40,141 bases of DNA from a virus, in the IMG/VR virus record IMGVR_UViG_3300010403_000036, positions 1 to 40,141 of that record; one strand, 5' to 3'. Below the pieces are notes generated by a model. That model saw only the letters and a list, made by a program, of their open reading frames with translations. It did not search any database and had not been told where the DNA came from. The position numbers and the translations under genes were made by a program. The first letter of the stretch is position 1, and the number at the start of each line of letters is the position of its first letter. Shown one piece after another: positions 33,087 to 39,532 of the stretch.

Positions 33087-33296
33087 TCATGTCCGCCGTG
33101 CCGCCGCCTTGGTGCGGCGAACGTGTCGCGCAAACCCCTTGGATGGGCGAACGTAAAGCAGCGTTCGAAACGAAGTGGCGCTTTCCACTTTACCAATTCC
33201 GGCGACCACGCGACGCATCCGATTAGTGTCAGTGCTAAACTTCACTCGATCCCCAGGGATGAGTCCAAGCGATCTTCGCGTCGTTACTTGCGTCAC
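33087..33296 (-). CDS. small basic protein with KOW/SH3-like segment
   Basis: 69 aa. Residues about 10-50 (LGLIPGDRVKFSTDTN, then LLYVRPS) suggest a small beta-barrel with an RVKF-type turn, and the C-terminus is strongly basic (RHVRRTKAAARRT), so nucleic-acid binding is possible. GTG 33296 overlaps the HNH gene stop in the GTGA pattern, so translation is coupled. The family is not identified. Confidence 0.5.
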   Translation of the reverse strand: MTQVTTRRSLGLIPGDRVKFSTDTNRMRRVVAGIGKVESATSFRTLLYVRPSKGFARHVRRTKAAARRT

Positions 33297-33949
33297 TTGC
33301 CGTCTCCATTCGACTGCATAATGGCAAACCTAGATTTCAAACCAAGGCGACTGGCTCTGCTATAAGTGGCACCAAATGGCCGCCCGACAACTTTTGCCGT
33401 TTGCGAGAAGCTTAAGCCTTGGCTCAAAGCCTCCTTTAACTTGGCGTCCTCGCATGGCGTCCAGAAATTATGGACAGGCGGCCTAGCGTAGTGTTTCCCG
33501 CGGGCTATGTCGCTGATCGTGCTCTCGGTGACGCCGAGGCTGTTGGCGATCTCAAGCTGAGTTTCCGTTCCTAGCCGCGCTCTAATGGCCTGAGCCTGCT
33601 CGTAGGTGAAGTGACCTCGCGGACCAAGGAAGTTCTTCGGCTGAGTGCCGTGAGCGACGCAATCGGCCAAGTTATCCGCCTGCGTCTTCCAGGATAGGTG
33701 GCGTGGGTTGACGCAGCCAAGGTGGCCATTACCGCAACTGTGAGCGGCTCCGTGAGCTGGAGAGGGCGGTTCTCCGTGCACCAAGCGACACATAAATCTG
33801 TGTGCGTACCCACGCTCTCCCTCATGGGTGAGCCATCCACGCCCGTTCTTGTCGAGAAAGTATGGCCATATCAGGCACCAGTCTTCGTGCGGATAGTCCG
33901 CGTGAGCCAGCATCCACTTGTAAGCAAGCCCTTCGCCTTTAGCTGTCAC
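33293..33949 (-). CDS. HNH endonuclease-like protein with two helix-turn-helix segments
   Basis: 218 aa. Residues 50-92 match the HNH_3 type of phage nucleases: HRFMCRLVHG, then AAHSCGNGHLGCVNPRHLSW (68-87), with His70, Asn81 and His84 as likely active-site residues and Cys72/Cys79 near the metal site. Residues about 112-150 (TYEQAQAIRAR, LEIANSLGVTESTISDIARG) are a typical helix-turn-helix. Residues about 162-205 (FWTPCEDAKLKEALSQGLS, then SRASRLGLK) resemble the N-terminal helix-turn-helix of GcrA. GTG 33949 is preceded by GGAG. It is probably a homing-type or DNA-nicking enzyme. Confidence 0.7.
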   Translation of the reverse strand: MTAKGEGLAYKWMLAHADYPHEDWCLIWPYFLDKNGRGWLTHEGERGYAHRFMCRLVHGEPPSPAHGAAHSCGNGHLGCVNPRHLSWKTQADNLADCVAHGTQPKNFLGPRGHFTYEQAQAIRARLGTETQLEIANSLGVTESTISDIARGKHYARPPVHNFWTPCEDAKLKEALSQGLSFSQTAKVVGRPFGATYSRASRLGLKSRFAIMQSNGDGK

Positions 33950-35268: not shown

Positions 35269-35823
35269 CTAGTGAGCGCCGGCCGCGAGTTTGTCCACTT
35301 GCCACTGCATCAGACCCTGAAGCGTCTGCATCGGGTGAGTAGCCCAAGGCGGCCTCACGTAATCCGCAAGCTCTGCAGTCTGGAGGGCAAGATTGGACAG
35401 CAACCGACCTTCTCTGGTTTCGGCACCGAGCATGTTCCGTTGCTTCCGAAGGCGTCGAATGGCTACCCGAATACCTGGCGGTGGTGGCGGCCTGCGAGAT
35501 GGGATTTCACCGACGATCGACTTGGTGATCTCGATAAATTCGAGCAACTCAGGTTCCGCCCGGAACCACTCTCCGCGAATCCGAAGATGGGCAAATTGCT
35601 CATGCGTTTCGAATTCTCCGATCCGATCGTCAGAGATGGCCGCCATCAATTCCAGCGGCTCGGAATGAGAGGTCTGGAGACCCGATAGGCGCCGCTTCAG
35701 GTCCTTGGTCGTTCCAATCTTGATGGTGTCACCGCGCCGTATGAAGTAGACGCAGCCTGGGCGAACGGGCCGGGAACGCTCGCGTGTCACTGGCGTGTCG
35801 CTTTTCGGGTTTGTTCTATCCAT
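35269..35823 (-). CDS. GIY-YIG-family nuclease-like protein (T5orf172/MUG113 type)
   Basis: 184 aa. The domain spans about 22-98: GCVYFIRRG (23-31), IKIGTTKDLKRRLSGLQ (34-50), with arginine 44/45, then Glu70 and His74 in FETHEQFAHLR, and GEWFR (84-88). These match the Y-I, G, R and E positions of GIY-YIG domains of the MUG113/T5orf172 class. The C-terminal half is helical with Arg-rich segments. It lies 97 bp beyond the integrase stop. It may cut DNA or act as a regulator; no substrate is known. Confidence 0.65.
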   Translation of the reverse strand: MDRTNPKSDTPVTRERSRPVRPGCVYFIRRGDTIKIGTTKDLKRRLSGLQTSHSEPLELMAAISDDRIGEFETHEQFAHLRIRGEWFRAEPELLEFIEITKSIVGEIPSRRPPPPPGIRVAIRRLRKQRNMLGAETREGRLLSNLALQTAELADYVRPPWATHPMQTLQGLMQWQVDKLAAGAH

Positions 35824-35920: not shown

Positions 35921-36940
35921 TTATTTGTCTCTATCCTCTTGTTTTTGTTCAACCTGATCCTCGCCGCGTGCTGTAGGCGTGCGGAAAATATCATCCGTCA
36001 GCCTGGCGTTCTTCATCGCGTGCGCATAGGTCTCAAGAAAGAGGCTAACGGAATCCCAGCCACCGAGCCCGGCTGCGGTCTTGGGATCGATGTTGTCCCG
36101 CAACAGTTTCGTTGCAAAGCCATGCCGGCAGCTATGGAAGGTCAGCCGGGCGAAGCCGGGGGCGGCCTTTGCTGCCTGAGCGATCACCGCATCCCACGCG
36201 CGCCGCAGAGTGGTCTCGGGGGCTCCAAAGGGCGCCGTGTCCCGGTCCAGGTTGGCGAGCGCGACCAGCAACCGCGCGGGCATATTGGGCTTGCGTTCCT
36301 TCTTGTTCTTGGTCTTCCGGACTAAGACGGTACGCTGCTGGAAATCAACGTCTGACCATTGCAGGCGCCGCGCCTCCGATATCCGGCAGGCCGTTGCGAA
36401 CATGAAGATTGCCAGCGCGTTCATCTGCTTGTCGCCGTGGGCGCAAAAGGTATCGAGCCATTCGACCGTGACCGGCTCTTTGATCTTCTTCTCGAACTTG
36501 AAGCGCTTGACCCGGATCGGGGCGCACTTCTCCAGCTCGGCACAATGATTGATGACGGCCTGCGTCGGCGTGATGACCTGACGATTCCATGTCGCGCCGC
36601 TGCATCCCGGGTAGATGTCGATTGCGCTCTGTCGGATTGCTCCTGCCGTCATGGTCTTGACCTTCGCATCCTTCCAATGGTCCTCGATCTTGCCGAGGTA
36701 CTTGTCCGACTTGCCGGCCTTCAGATACAGCGCGACGGCTTCCGGAAATGTCAGCGAGTCCTGCGGTCCATCGAGATGACGGTTGAGGAGTTGGTGCTGG
36801 AGCGCGGACGCAATTCGCGCTGCGTCTTTTTTGTCCGCTGTGCCAGTCGTTCCGCGTAGGTAGTTGCCGGCGACGTCTCCGCGGTAGTGCCAAATAAAGC
36901 TGCCGTCCCGCTTGTATCGTTTGAAGAGCTTGAGGGGCAT
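35921..36940 (-). CDS. tyrosine-type site-specific integrase
   Basis: 339 aa. The N-terminal arm (1-60) binds DNA, the core-binding part is helical (about 62-140), and the catalytic domain runs from about 155. Visible catalytic residues are Arg186 (TACRISEARRL), Lys209 (VRKTKNKK), His269 and Arg272 (FHSCRHGFAT), Trp295 (GLGGWDS, at the His/Trp position) and Tyr305 (LETYAHA). All are in order, so the enzyme looks active. It integrates and excises the phage. The start of the gene overlaps the xis-like gene by 190 bp. Confidence 0.9.
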   Translation of the reverse strand: MPLKLFKRYKRDGSFIWHYRGDVAGNYLRGTTGTADKKDAARIASALQHQLLNRHLDGPQDSLTFPEAVALYLKAGKSDKYLGKIEDHWKDAKVKTMTAGAIRQSAIDIYPGCSGATWNRQVITPTQAVINHCAELEKCAPIRVKRFKFEKKIKEPVTVEWLDTFCAHGDKQMNALAIFMFATACRISEARRLQWSDVDFQQRTVLVRKTKNKKERKPNMPARLLVALANLDRDTAPFGAPETTLRRAWDAVIAQAAKAAPGFARLTFHSCRHGFATKLLRDNIDPKTAAGLGGWDSVSLFLETYAHAMKNARLTDDIFRTPTARGEDQVEQKQEDRDK

Positions 36941-37678: not shown

Positions 37679-37975
37679 CTAGGCCGCGCTTCCGGCGGCC
37701 ATCTCCTCCATGTGCCTCTTGATCCACTTGCTGTGGTAGTGCGCCTTGGCAACCGCAGCCTTGGGCGAGTTGTGAACCGACCAGCAATAATCCTCTCCGT
37801 GGTTGGGACGATCGTGCCGATCCGTCTGCGAATTGTAATCAAAAGTAACTATTCCCGTGACGCGCAACTCGAACATCCCGAAGCGGTCCGGCACGACCCG
37901 GTATCCGGGAAGGTCACGAACCTCGAAACCCTCGAAACGGGCCGCCTTGCGGTCTGCGGTGCTCAACTTAGCCAT
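37679..37975 (-). CDS. first gene of the leftward lysogeny run, unknown
   Basis: 98 aa. It is basic and aromatic (ARFEGFEVRDLPGYRVVP, later YCWSVHNSPKAAVAKAHYHS), with a helix at the end. No domain is recognised. AGGAG precedes ATG 37975. It is the gene directly controlled by the promoter at 38009-38036, the head of the run that leads through the xis-like gene to int. A regulatory or accessory role is possible. Confidence 0.55.
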   Translation of the reverse strand: MAKLSTADRKAARFEGFEVRDLPGYRVVPDRFGMFELRVTGIVTFDYNSQTDRHDRPNHGEDYCWSVHNSPKAAVAKAHYHSKWIKRHMEEMAAGSAA

Positions 37976-37999
37976 GTCGATCTCCTCTTGCGTTAATTC

Positions 38000-38049
38000 C
38001 TGATATGACTTATATACCTCATACGAGAAACGTCAATACCTCATATGAG
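38000..38049. promoter_or_regulatory. tandem palindromic operators between divergent genes
   Basis: CTCATACGAG (38018-38027) and the perfect palindrome CTCATATGAG (38040-38049) are 22 bp apart, start to start, about two helical turns, with shared flanks (ATACCTCATA and GAGAAA). A third, degenerate copy CTGATATGAC (38000-38009) matches eight of ten positions. They bracket the elements of the - strand promoter. Placement next to the ribbon-helix-helix gene makes them its likely binding sites. Confidence 0.65.
38009..38036 (-). promoter_or_regulatory. strong leftward sigma70-type promoter
   Basis: On the - strand, TTGACG (38036-38031) and TATAAG (38014-38009) each match five of six consensus positions, with 16-bp spacing. 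One operator lies in the spacer, one just upstream of the -35 and the degenerate one just downstream of the -10, so a bound repressor would block RNA polymerase. It should drive 37679-37975 and the genes down to int. Confidence 0.65.
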
Positions 38050-38058
38050 AAATAATCA

Positions 38059-38217
38059 ATGGGACGCAAAAAAAGATGGGCTGAGGATATGCAGGCCCGT
38101 TTCGCTGAGGGCACCTTCGAGCGGATTGATGCAGTGCGGGAAGACGACGAGGACAGAACGGATTTTGTCCGGGAAGCCGTCGAAAGGGAGCTGAAAAGGC
38201 GGGAGCGGCGCTCATGA
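38059..38217 (+). CDS. ribbon-helix-helix transcriptional regulator
   Basis: 52 aa. A basic start (MGRKKRW) is followed by strand-like MQARFAEG, helix FERIDAVRE, and helix TDFVREAVERELKRRERR, the ribbon-helix-helix order of CopG/Arc-type repressors. It is the only + strand gene after 32195 and faces away from the operator/promoter. The ATG has only a weak purine tract (GAGAAA) upstream. A + strand TTGCGT/TATATA pair (37988-38016, 17-bp spacing) could serve as its promoter. Likely an autoregulated repressor of the leftward run. Confidence 0.65.
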   Translation: MGRKKRWAEDMQARFAEGTFERIDAVREDDEDRTDFVREAVERELKRRERRS

Positions 38218-38496
38218 TTCAGACTTTCGGACACCAGAAGCCTCGGAAAGTGCCTCGCGGGCAATCCGCTGCATTCTGACGAGTGCCCCGGCCTTCTTGG
38301 TGACAGCTATCGCATCGATCTGAACTAGTGCAGAGCGCAGGCACTCGATCTCGTCGGCGGCCTCATCAAGTAGCCGCTCCGTTGGAAGCGGGGCATCATT
38401 CGATCGAGACCGTATGCGTTGGACAACATCGGTCATGCTTCGCTCCTCGTTCCGTTCGATGCGAACAACTGGTAGCGTCACAACATTCTCGGTCAT
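38212..38496 (-). CDS. small helical phage protein
   Basis: 94 aa, unrecognised. Residues about 20-50 are helical with PTERLLDEAADEIECLRSAL, followed by a second helix (KKAGALVRMQRIAREALSEA). Two starts are possible: ATG 38496 overlaps the MazG-like stop (ATGA), and an in-frame ATG at 38436 has a better GAGGAG signal. Its 3' end overlaps the end of the ribbon-helix-helix gene tail to tail by 6 bp, so transcription from opposite sides collides here. Confidence 0.5.
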   Translation of the reverse strand: MTENVVTLPVVRIERNEERSMTDVVQRIRSRSNDAPLPTERLLDEAADEIECLRSALVQIDAIAVTKKAGALVRMQRIAREALSEASGVRKSES

Positions 38497-38786
38497 TTGC
38501 CACCTTGGATACCAGAAGTGAAGAAAACTCCGAACTTCGCCTTGGCTCGCTCGGCCTTCGCTATCTTGTCGTACTGAGACTGCTCTTTGAGAGCAGTGTT
38601 TAGAGGCAATTCATCCATCACCGCCTGCAGATCTCCGCATTCCTCGGACAGTTTGTCACTGTTCCGGCCGTAACCGATATCGTGATCAACGTCATAGCCA
38701 AACCGCAAACACTTGGTGGCAGCCTGGATGACCTCGCCGCACTCTTCGATCAGCAGGATCAGAAGATCTTCGCGGGTGAGTTTCAT
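38493..38786 (-). CDS. MazG-like nucleotide pyrophosphohydrolase
   Basis: 97 aa. The metal-binding pattern ExxE (Glu15, Glu18 in EECGEV) followed by ExxD (Glu49, Asp52 in EECGDL) with LLIEECGEVIQAATKCLRFG is typical of the all-alpha NTP pyrophosphohydrolase family. Substrates in this family are (d)NTPs, and phage members may remove modified or alarm nucleotides. The start overlaps the upstream zinc protein by 4 bp, and the stop overlaps the next gene by 4 bp. Likely active. Confidence 0.7.
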   Translation of the reverse strand: MKLTREDLLILLIEECGEVIQAATKCLRFGYDVDHDIGYGRNSDKLSEECGDLQAVMDELPLNTALKEQSQYDKIAKAERAKAKFGVFFTSGIQGGK

Positions 38787-38947
38787 GTTTCGCTCTTATG
38801 GTTTCCGGAAGAGAGCGCGTCGGCGGAATCATTCAACCGCTTTGCTTCCTGTATCGATTTGTATTCCGCGCACCGGTCGCGCTGCTTCTCAGTTCGGCAT
38901 CGGTCGCCGCTGACAAACCAAGCCTCGCAAAAGTGACAATAGTTCAT
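38783..38947 (-). CDS. 54-aa zinc-finger-like protein
   Basis: Starts MNYCHFCEAW (Cys4, Cys7) with further Cys17 and Cys26 (GDRCRTE, RDRCAEY), which can form one zinc site. A charged helix (about 29-40) follows. ATGA overlaps on both sides (38783-38786 and 38944-38947) tie it to the MazG-like and DUF4326 genes and are strong support for a real gene despite its small size. Its function is unknown. Confidence 0.6.
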   Translation of the reverse strand: MNYCHFCEAWFVSGDRCRTEKQRDRCAEYKSIQEAKRLNDSADALSSGNHKSET

Positions 38948-39246
38948 GATCGGCCCTCACGGTCTGCCGGAGTGTTCGCTAGTTCTAGGAGGACGTCGGC
39001 GTGGCATGCGTCACTGCGCCGGCACCAGCAGGCGAGGTTCTTCCCCCGCAATAATTCCAAGTCGTCGCGCCCTGATTTTGTCTTAGCCAGCCGCTCCCAT
39101 CTAACCCTGAAGAAGCGAACGGCCTGGCATCGCGTCATCGCCGACGTTTGATAAGGGTTGCCCCAGCGAGTCGGGCGGCCGACGTAGACTGTCTCTGGTG
39201 GCATCTTCCAGCCCTTCGTCCGCTTGCGTTGAATGCGCTCAGCCAT
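38944..39246 (-). CDS. DUF4326-like protein
   Basis: 100 aa. It contains the DUF4326 phrases VYVGRPTRWGNPY (20-32), LRGKNLACWC (66-75) and CHADVLLELAN (81-91). The family is common in phages and actinobacteria and has no established activity; the conserved Cys/His suggests metal binding or catalysis. ATG 39246 is chosen over TTG 39270 because GAGGG precedes it at the right distance. It overlaps the previous gene by 8 bp. Confidence 0.75.
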   Translation of the reverse strand: MAERIQRKRTKGWKMPPETVYVGRPTRWGNPYQTSAMTRCQAVRFFRVRWERLAKTKSGRDDLELLRGKNLACWCRRSDACHADVLLELANTPADREGRS

Positions 39247-39532
39247 TTTGCCCTCGCGGACTTCCCACAAGAGCGAGCACGCTCTCGGCCTCTACGAGTT
39301 TGTCGCGGACCACGGCATAATTGGTATTGCTGATCTCTTGCCGGATGCCGATTTCGAATGCATCCCAAATGCCAGCAACCTCGTTCGTGAGACGCTTTAA
39401 TGCCCGTATCAATGTTTCTCGTTCCTCCCGAGCGATCCGCAGCGCTTCGGGGCAGGGTTCGCTGCTTGCGGCCCCACACTTTGGGCAGGCGCCGCGTTGG
39501 GGAAGTTCATTCCCGGCCGCACATCTGTTCAT
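39239..39532 (-). CDS. small protein with N-terminal CxxC zinc site
   Basis: 97 aa. Residues about 16-28 (CPKCGAASSEPCPE) and Cys4 suggest a zinc-ribbon. The remaining 70 residues are a helical coil (REERETLIRALKRLTNEVAG, then SNTNYAVVRDKLVEAESVL). Such proteins are common in phage early runs and have no assigned role. It overlaps both neighbours by 4-8 bp. Confidence 0.55.
   Translation of the reverse strand: MNRCAAGNELPQRGACPKCGAASSEPCPEALRIAREERETLIRALKRLTNEVAGIWDAFEIGIRQEISNTNYAVVRDKLVEAESVLALVGSPRGQNG

Follow-up and report, generated by a model that had tools for sequence, protein, structure and literature searches.

A ribbon-helix-helix gene with boxes interleaved in two facing promoters: a candidate self-repressing cassette of alphaproteobacterial phages and plasmids

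A 52-amino-acid ribbon-helix-helix (RHH) protein, encoded near the right end of the window (i.e., the whole 40,141-nucleotide stretch of viral DNA analyzed here), and the boxes upstream of its gene probably form a compact, portable, self-repressing, bidirectional promoter cassette that is local to its genes (probability of roughly 0.8). The anatomy, conservation, box-protein co-variation, and box locality of the cassette were observed; from these we infer binding, repression, and the timing of a burst. The RHH gene would be transcribed from P_R and a leftward operon from P_L, both sigma-70-type promoters, which overlap face to face. RHH dimers would bind three short near-palindromic boxes, one within each promoter spacer and one bordering the P_L -35, and their binding would shut both promoters. 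On entry into a naive cell, where RHH protein is absent, the leftward genes would be expressed in a burst; as RHH accumulates, it would close its own promoter and P_L, and the operon would be kept low in the lysogen. The burst followed by shut-off is suggested by the logic of autoregulation and by the precedent of Aca proteins (PMC11065993). Activation, rather than repression, of one of the two promoters may also occur. Mobile elements appear to place the cassette ahead of variable early genes, often in an accessory region near the integrase gene (int).

Boxes, promoters, and genes in the window

The features of the window on which the analysis rests are as follows.

38059..38217, + strand: gene for the 52-aa RHH regulator, with profile matches to solved RHH proteins
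Residues 10-15 of its product (DMQARF): predicted DNA-contacting strand
38040..38049: Box 1, CTCATATGAG, a perfect palindrome; borders the P_L -35 on its upstream side and falls within the RHH leader
38018..38027: Box 2, CTCATACGAG, with one mismatch; lies between the P_L -35 and -10, where the RHH transcript is expected to begin
38000..38009: Box 3, CTGATATGAC, with two mismatches; lies between the P_R -35 and -10 and, for P_L, at the -10/start
38009..38036, - strand: predicted leftward promoter P_L (-35 TTGACG, 38036-38031; 16-nt spacer; -10 TATAAG, 38014-38009)
37988..38016, + strand: predicted RHH promoter P_R (-35 TTGCGT, 37988-37993; 17-nt spacer; -10 TATATA, 38011-38016)
37679..37975, - strand: first leftward gene, 98 aa, function unassigned by matches, with a GAGGAG Shine-Dalgarno sequence
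35921..36940, - strand: tyrosine integrase gene at the far end of the leftward gene run from P_L (Pfam PF00589, E 2.8e-21; PHROG integrase)

An initial annotation, made from the sequence of the window, had described the plus-strand RHH frame, the leftward TTGACG/TATAAG promoter with its 16-nt spacer, and three CTCATATGAG-like boxes, all of which were recovered at the positions given above. It had also described perfect palindromes 22 bp apart; the spacing holds from start to start (38018 and 38040), but only the box at 38040 is perfect. Its promoter picture was right for P_L but missed P_R, the RHH gene's own promoter, and the box that it called degenerate sits in the P_R spacer. Because P_L and P_R overlap face to face, the boxes touch both promoters. 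P_L was missing from the output of our sigma-70 scanner because the scanner accepts only -10 elements ending in T. The P_R of the window is weak by consensus, and its layout with a 17-nt spacer is also found in relatives (e.g., TTGACT/TATATA in L014).

The box region was the top 60-bp segment in the 40 kb for triple palindromic repeats, by a slim margin (27 versus 26), and no further site matching CTCATATGAG with at most one mismatch was found anywhere in the 40 kb. Box 1 recurs at the equivalent position in about 20 relatives, and a box similar to Box 3 is kept in L005, L006, L008, L014, L025, and L061. At the level of sequence, the persuasive evidence for these putative operators is their conservation across the family, not the single sequence.

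The RHH gene product is MGRKKRWAEDMQARFAEGTFERIDAVREDDEDRTDFVREAVERELKRRERRS. A Pfam search returned a weak match to DUF7557 and nothing else. A profile built from 21 relatives matched the CopG-family protein 7by2 (E 0.0053) and, more weakly, MazE6 and AmrZ, all of which are RHH proteins. The NCBIfam model for YlcI/YnfO (NF041551) scored 26.4 bits against the window protein, below the curated cutoff of 30, and 34 against the relative L036, above it. Judged by similarity to solved RHH domains and by the YlcI/YnfO profile, the protein is assigned to the RHH superfamily. An AlphaFold monomer model contained helices at residues 19-26 and 33-51 (mean pLDDT, 90) and no assigned strand, as the strand cannot form in an RHH monomer; a Foldseek search with this 52-residue monomer yielded no PDB match. 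From the alignment with Arc, we take residues 10, 12, and 14 to face the DNA. Across the family, the C-terminal helix REAVERELKRRER hardly varies, in contrast to the hypervariable strand region.

The first leftward gene starts about 27 nt past the predicted P_L start, and its product had no match in Pfam, PHROG, NCBIfam, or PADLOC. A 73-aa open reading frame upstream of int was considered as a possible Xis and discarded: it lies in the wrong frame, and the alternative frame has no family match. The proteins examined around the RHH gene, an integrase among them, gave no relaxase match. Other minus-strand genes of the window encode a GIY-YIG-like (MUG113/T5orf172) protein (35269-35823), a protein that weakly matches HNH and sigma/HTH-like families (33293-33949), and a MazG-like pyrophosphohydrolase (38493-38786). 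A short DNA stretch at 39153-39246, which shares about 75% identity with many phages of Mycobacterium and Gordonia, sits inside a minus-strand gene (38944-39270) that matches phrog_464 (unknown function).

Distribution and architecture of the cassette family

Scans of viral and genome contigs yielded a family of 134 nonredundant loci. Carriers are mostly temperate phages, together with a few plasmids, of Alphaproteobacteria, the group to which most genome loci with named hosts also belong. They include Caulobacter phage DMCA, the Mu-like Sinorhizobium phage StopSmel, and plasmids of Azospirillum, Sphingobium, and Methylobacterium. Open-access literature searches returned no description of the cassette.

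The initial annotation had named a search for conserved boxes in homologous prophages as a check, and such boxes were found across the family. Within about 120 bp upstream of the RHH gene, GTCAATA (the P_L -35 read on the plus strand) occurred in 82 of 132 loci, compared with 1.3 expected from shuffled sequences. Repeated palindromes exceeded the 99th percentile of shuffles in 74% of loci; boxes did not stand out from shuffles in about a quarter, and some of these box-poor loci are explained by an RHH frame that sits in another context. In L196, L205, L077, and L026, the RHH frame lacks boxes and the upstream sequence is coding-like, so the frame may belong to a longer gene. The P_L spacer was 17 nt long in 61 of the 82 loci with GTCAATA, and a -10 matching at least five of six consensus positions was present in 29%, versus 4%.

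Two layouts were distinguished. In layout A (39 loci, including the window), the P_L -35 precedes the RHH start by about 27-28 nt and the promoters overlap. In layout B (43 loci), it lies at about -67 and the promoters are back-to-back, most loci having further boxes at -25 and +35/36. In 30 of the 43 layout B loci, the P_R -35 precedes the start codon by exactly 36 nt, which would place the transcript start at the start codon and make the RHH mRNA leaderless. The predicted P_R -10 in this layout (e.g., L062:5001, L071:5001, and L137:3001) ends about 7 nt before the start codon.

The boxes are local to the cassette. All 21 exact CTCATATGAG-type boxes, from 19 phage records, lay inside RHH cassettes, and the RHH protein is therefore regarded as a local regulator. 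Two cassettes occur together in some phages. The L052 record combines an ILLPL and a TQVRL type whose boxes differ (at about 39.4 kb and 43.7 kb), the L048 record a NINLTL and a TQVRL type (at about 1.2 kb and 3.2 kb), and the L025 record two cassettes of one type. The pairing of different box types in L052 and L048 suggests orthogonal regulation by paralogous cassettes inside one genome.

The first leftward gene starts a median of 54 nt after the P_L -35 and is hypervariable, with 97 of 126 such genes resembling no other in the set. Searches of 99 first leftward genes against Pfam, PHROGs, and PADLOC revealed no common family, and most lacked a known function. Matches were scattered (two HNH proteins, one cytosine methylase, and one each of LPD29, AP2, GapR-like, and DUF1391), and we rejected the assignment of a functional class to the leftward genes on this basis. 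On Sphingobium xenophagum plasmid p4 (L221, 2931-5177), the cassette is divergent to a small gene followed by parA and parB, an arrangement that may place a plasmid partition operon under RHH control.

On the other side of the cassette, a transposase-like gene of about 430-460 aa begins at or just past the RHH stop codon in L060 (5159-6535), L010 (5159-6514), L017 (823-2184), L039 (198-1505), L040 (5189-6472), and L072 (DMCA_042), with a 4-nt overlap in several loci. The encoded proteins are 28-35% identical to the first of the set. Inverted repeats were sought around three of the RHH-transposase pairs, and no clear insertion sequence ends were found.

Box classes and the DNA-contacting strand

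The box cores fall into more than 12 classes, which follow the predicted DNA-contacting strand of the RHH protein. The following strands and boxes were paired.

DMQARF: CTCATATGAG
Q(M/T/I)PAR(F/L): GGTGATATCA
QTIIRL: GATGTAATCA
NINLTL: CATGTACACG
RLT(L/V)PL: CGTACATACG
RILLPL: CATATATACG
PT(L/V)VRL: GCGATATCGC
PTQVRL: CGATACCG or CGGTACCG
ETKVRL: CGGGGACGG
PTTVRL: GCGGTTGCGG

Among 82 loci, the box core was correlated with the strand when the helices and N-terminal tail were controlled for (partial Mantel r, 0.50; p 0.0005). The partial correlation with the helices, controlling for the strand, was 0.35, and shared ancestry therefore contributes; that with the N-terminal tail was nil. Between proteins with 65-80% helix identity, the mean core difference rose from 0.43 to 1.67 and 3.0 of 8 positions for 0, 1-2, and 3-6 strand changes, respectively. 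When only neighbors with less than 70% helix identity were used, the strand predicted the core to within one mismatch in 66% of cases and the helices in 20%. This co-variation, which is a correlation and not a measure of binding, is consistent with strand residues 10-15 determining the DNA site.

Three plasmid cassettes outside the set gave a mixed picture. L222 (TPARF) fits the strand rule, and L221 has no exact precedent. L220 (DMVARF) has AGATATC boxes, whereas L009, with the same strand, has CTCATATGAG; residues outside positions 10-15 must therefore matter too. A helix-region tree of the 82 loci implied no fewer than 25 switches of box class and 14 of layout, although the tree is weak, resting on 37 residues only, and these counts carry little weight. 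Changes in the DNA-contacting strand have probably allowed related cassettes to swap box specificity. The central claim of the initial annotation, a promoter interleaved with the cognate operators of an RHH protein, fared well: the arrangement is conserved in dozens of phages, its boxes co-vary with the protein, and repression is the most likely outcome of binding.

A more tentative proposal, to which we give less than even odds, is that many mutually orthogonal RHH/box specificities exist, that they diverged by selection to escape repression by resident cassettes, and that each cassette delivers a burst of early accessory, possibly anti-defense, genes. Selection of this kind is a plausible cause of the box divergence. 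If the proposal is true, the family would provide a natural code by which RHH strands recognize DNA and would serve as bait for unknown anti-defense genes. With more than 12 box classes, it supplies naturally occurring RHH repressors together with their own sites, in numbers sufficient to work out and test the way strand residues read DNA, which has so far been studied mainly via single examples such as Arc and SmpO. Small and self-contained, the cassette also appears to be orthogonal from one type to another, and it flags hypervariable early genes in phages and plasmids of Alphaproteobacteria.

Alternative roles and known systems

The initial annotation had suggested that the RHH protein might control int/xis or lysogeny. 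As a dedicated regulator of an int/xis operon, it would set integrase dosage through P_L, an internal int promoter lambda-like in role. Such control is possible in the window, where the genes from P_L to int run leftward, and int lies within 5.6 kb of the RHH gene in 25 of 29 large records with an integrase (p 2e-12). However, int is to the left of the RHH gene in 14 of these 25 records (on the plus strand in 3) and to the right in 11, on the strand convergent with the RHH gene, so that P_L cannot read into it there. Plasmid cassettes lack an int operon, the leftward genes on Sphingobium plasmid p4 leading instead to parAB, and the hypervariability of the first leftward gene also speaks against a dedicated int/xis role. 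Integrase control does not appear to be the common function of the family, and we consider this reading rather unlikely.

A role as the lysogeny (immunity) repressor of a cI-less phage, holding the lytic program off and conferring superinfection immunity, is very improbable. In its favor, the operators overlap a strong early promoter, and their types diversify like immunity groups. The window does contain no cI-like gene above the cutoff, as the initial annotation had noted, but it ends 1.9 kb to the right of the RHH gene, and this absence therefore says nothing. At least 11 relatives carry a cI-like HTH_3 gene, often in a divergent pair, 1.1-7.6 kb to the right of the RHH gene, and HTH_3 scored above the cutoff in 24 of 50 records; in the sequenced phage StopSmel, a c repressor is annotated separately from the RHH gene. 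These relatives appear to have another repressor, and the exact box is confined to the cassette, whereas a lysogeny repressor would be expected to have operators at several early promoters. On box locality and the separate HTH_3 genes, we rejected the idea that the RHH protein replaces cI. Least credible is an antitoxin of a type II toxin-antitoxin pair autoregulated through the boxes: RHH proteins often serve as antitoxins whose operators lie in their own promoter, and MazE6 is among the profile matches, but a same-strand gene follows closely in only 44 of 134 loci (36 of the 44 being singletons), so that no conserved same-strand partner exists, the next gene in the window is convergent, and a 52-aa protein leaves no C-terminal toxin-binding tail.

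The preferred reading, a self-repressing local cassette, has several partial precedents. Arc and Mnt of phage P22 are phage-encoded RHH repressors with operators inside a promoter, whose strand residues read the bases. They sit in a defined immunity region controlling an antirepressor, whereas the cassette is free-standing, near int or on plasmids. YlcI/YnfO proteins (NF041551; e.g., YlcI of Escherichia coli prophage DLP12) are likewise small, prophage-encoded, and RHH-like, and some cassette proteins exceed the model's cutoff, although the window protein does not; inspection by eye of the region upstream of E. coli ylcI revealed no comparable box cassette.

Bacterial Aca proteins are helix-turn-helix (HTH) proteins. 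Aca8 of rudiviruses, a predicted winged-HTH protein, is a small local DNA-binding regulator associated with strong early promoters and small, fast-changing genes, for which a burst followed by shut-off has been proposed (PMC11065993). Aca-type autorepressors thus resemble the cassette in pairing a small local regulator with strong early promoters of fast-changing genes. They differ in being cotranscribed HTH proteins, whereas the cassette regulator matches RHH profiles and is divergent, with no known Acr identified beside it. SmpO proteins are RHH relaxosome accessory factors of pWBG749-family plasmids, with GNNNNC-type cognate sites that form subtypes; the N-terminal substitution F7K alone switches site specificity, and specificity has switched more than once in evolution (PMC8136818). 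The cassette proteins share with SmpO the RHH fold and the subdivision of sites, and the divergence of their boxes resembles that of SmpO and oriT. SmpO acts at oriT with a relaxase, whereas the cassette has its sites in divergent phage promoters, more site classes, and no relaxase partner among the neighboring proteins examined. On this comparison, Aca-type autorepressors and SmpO RHH proteins are the closest precedents for the cassette.
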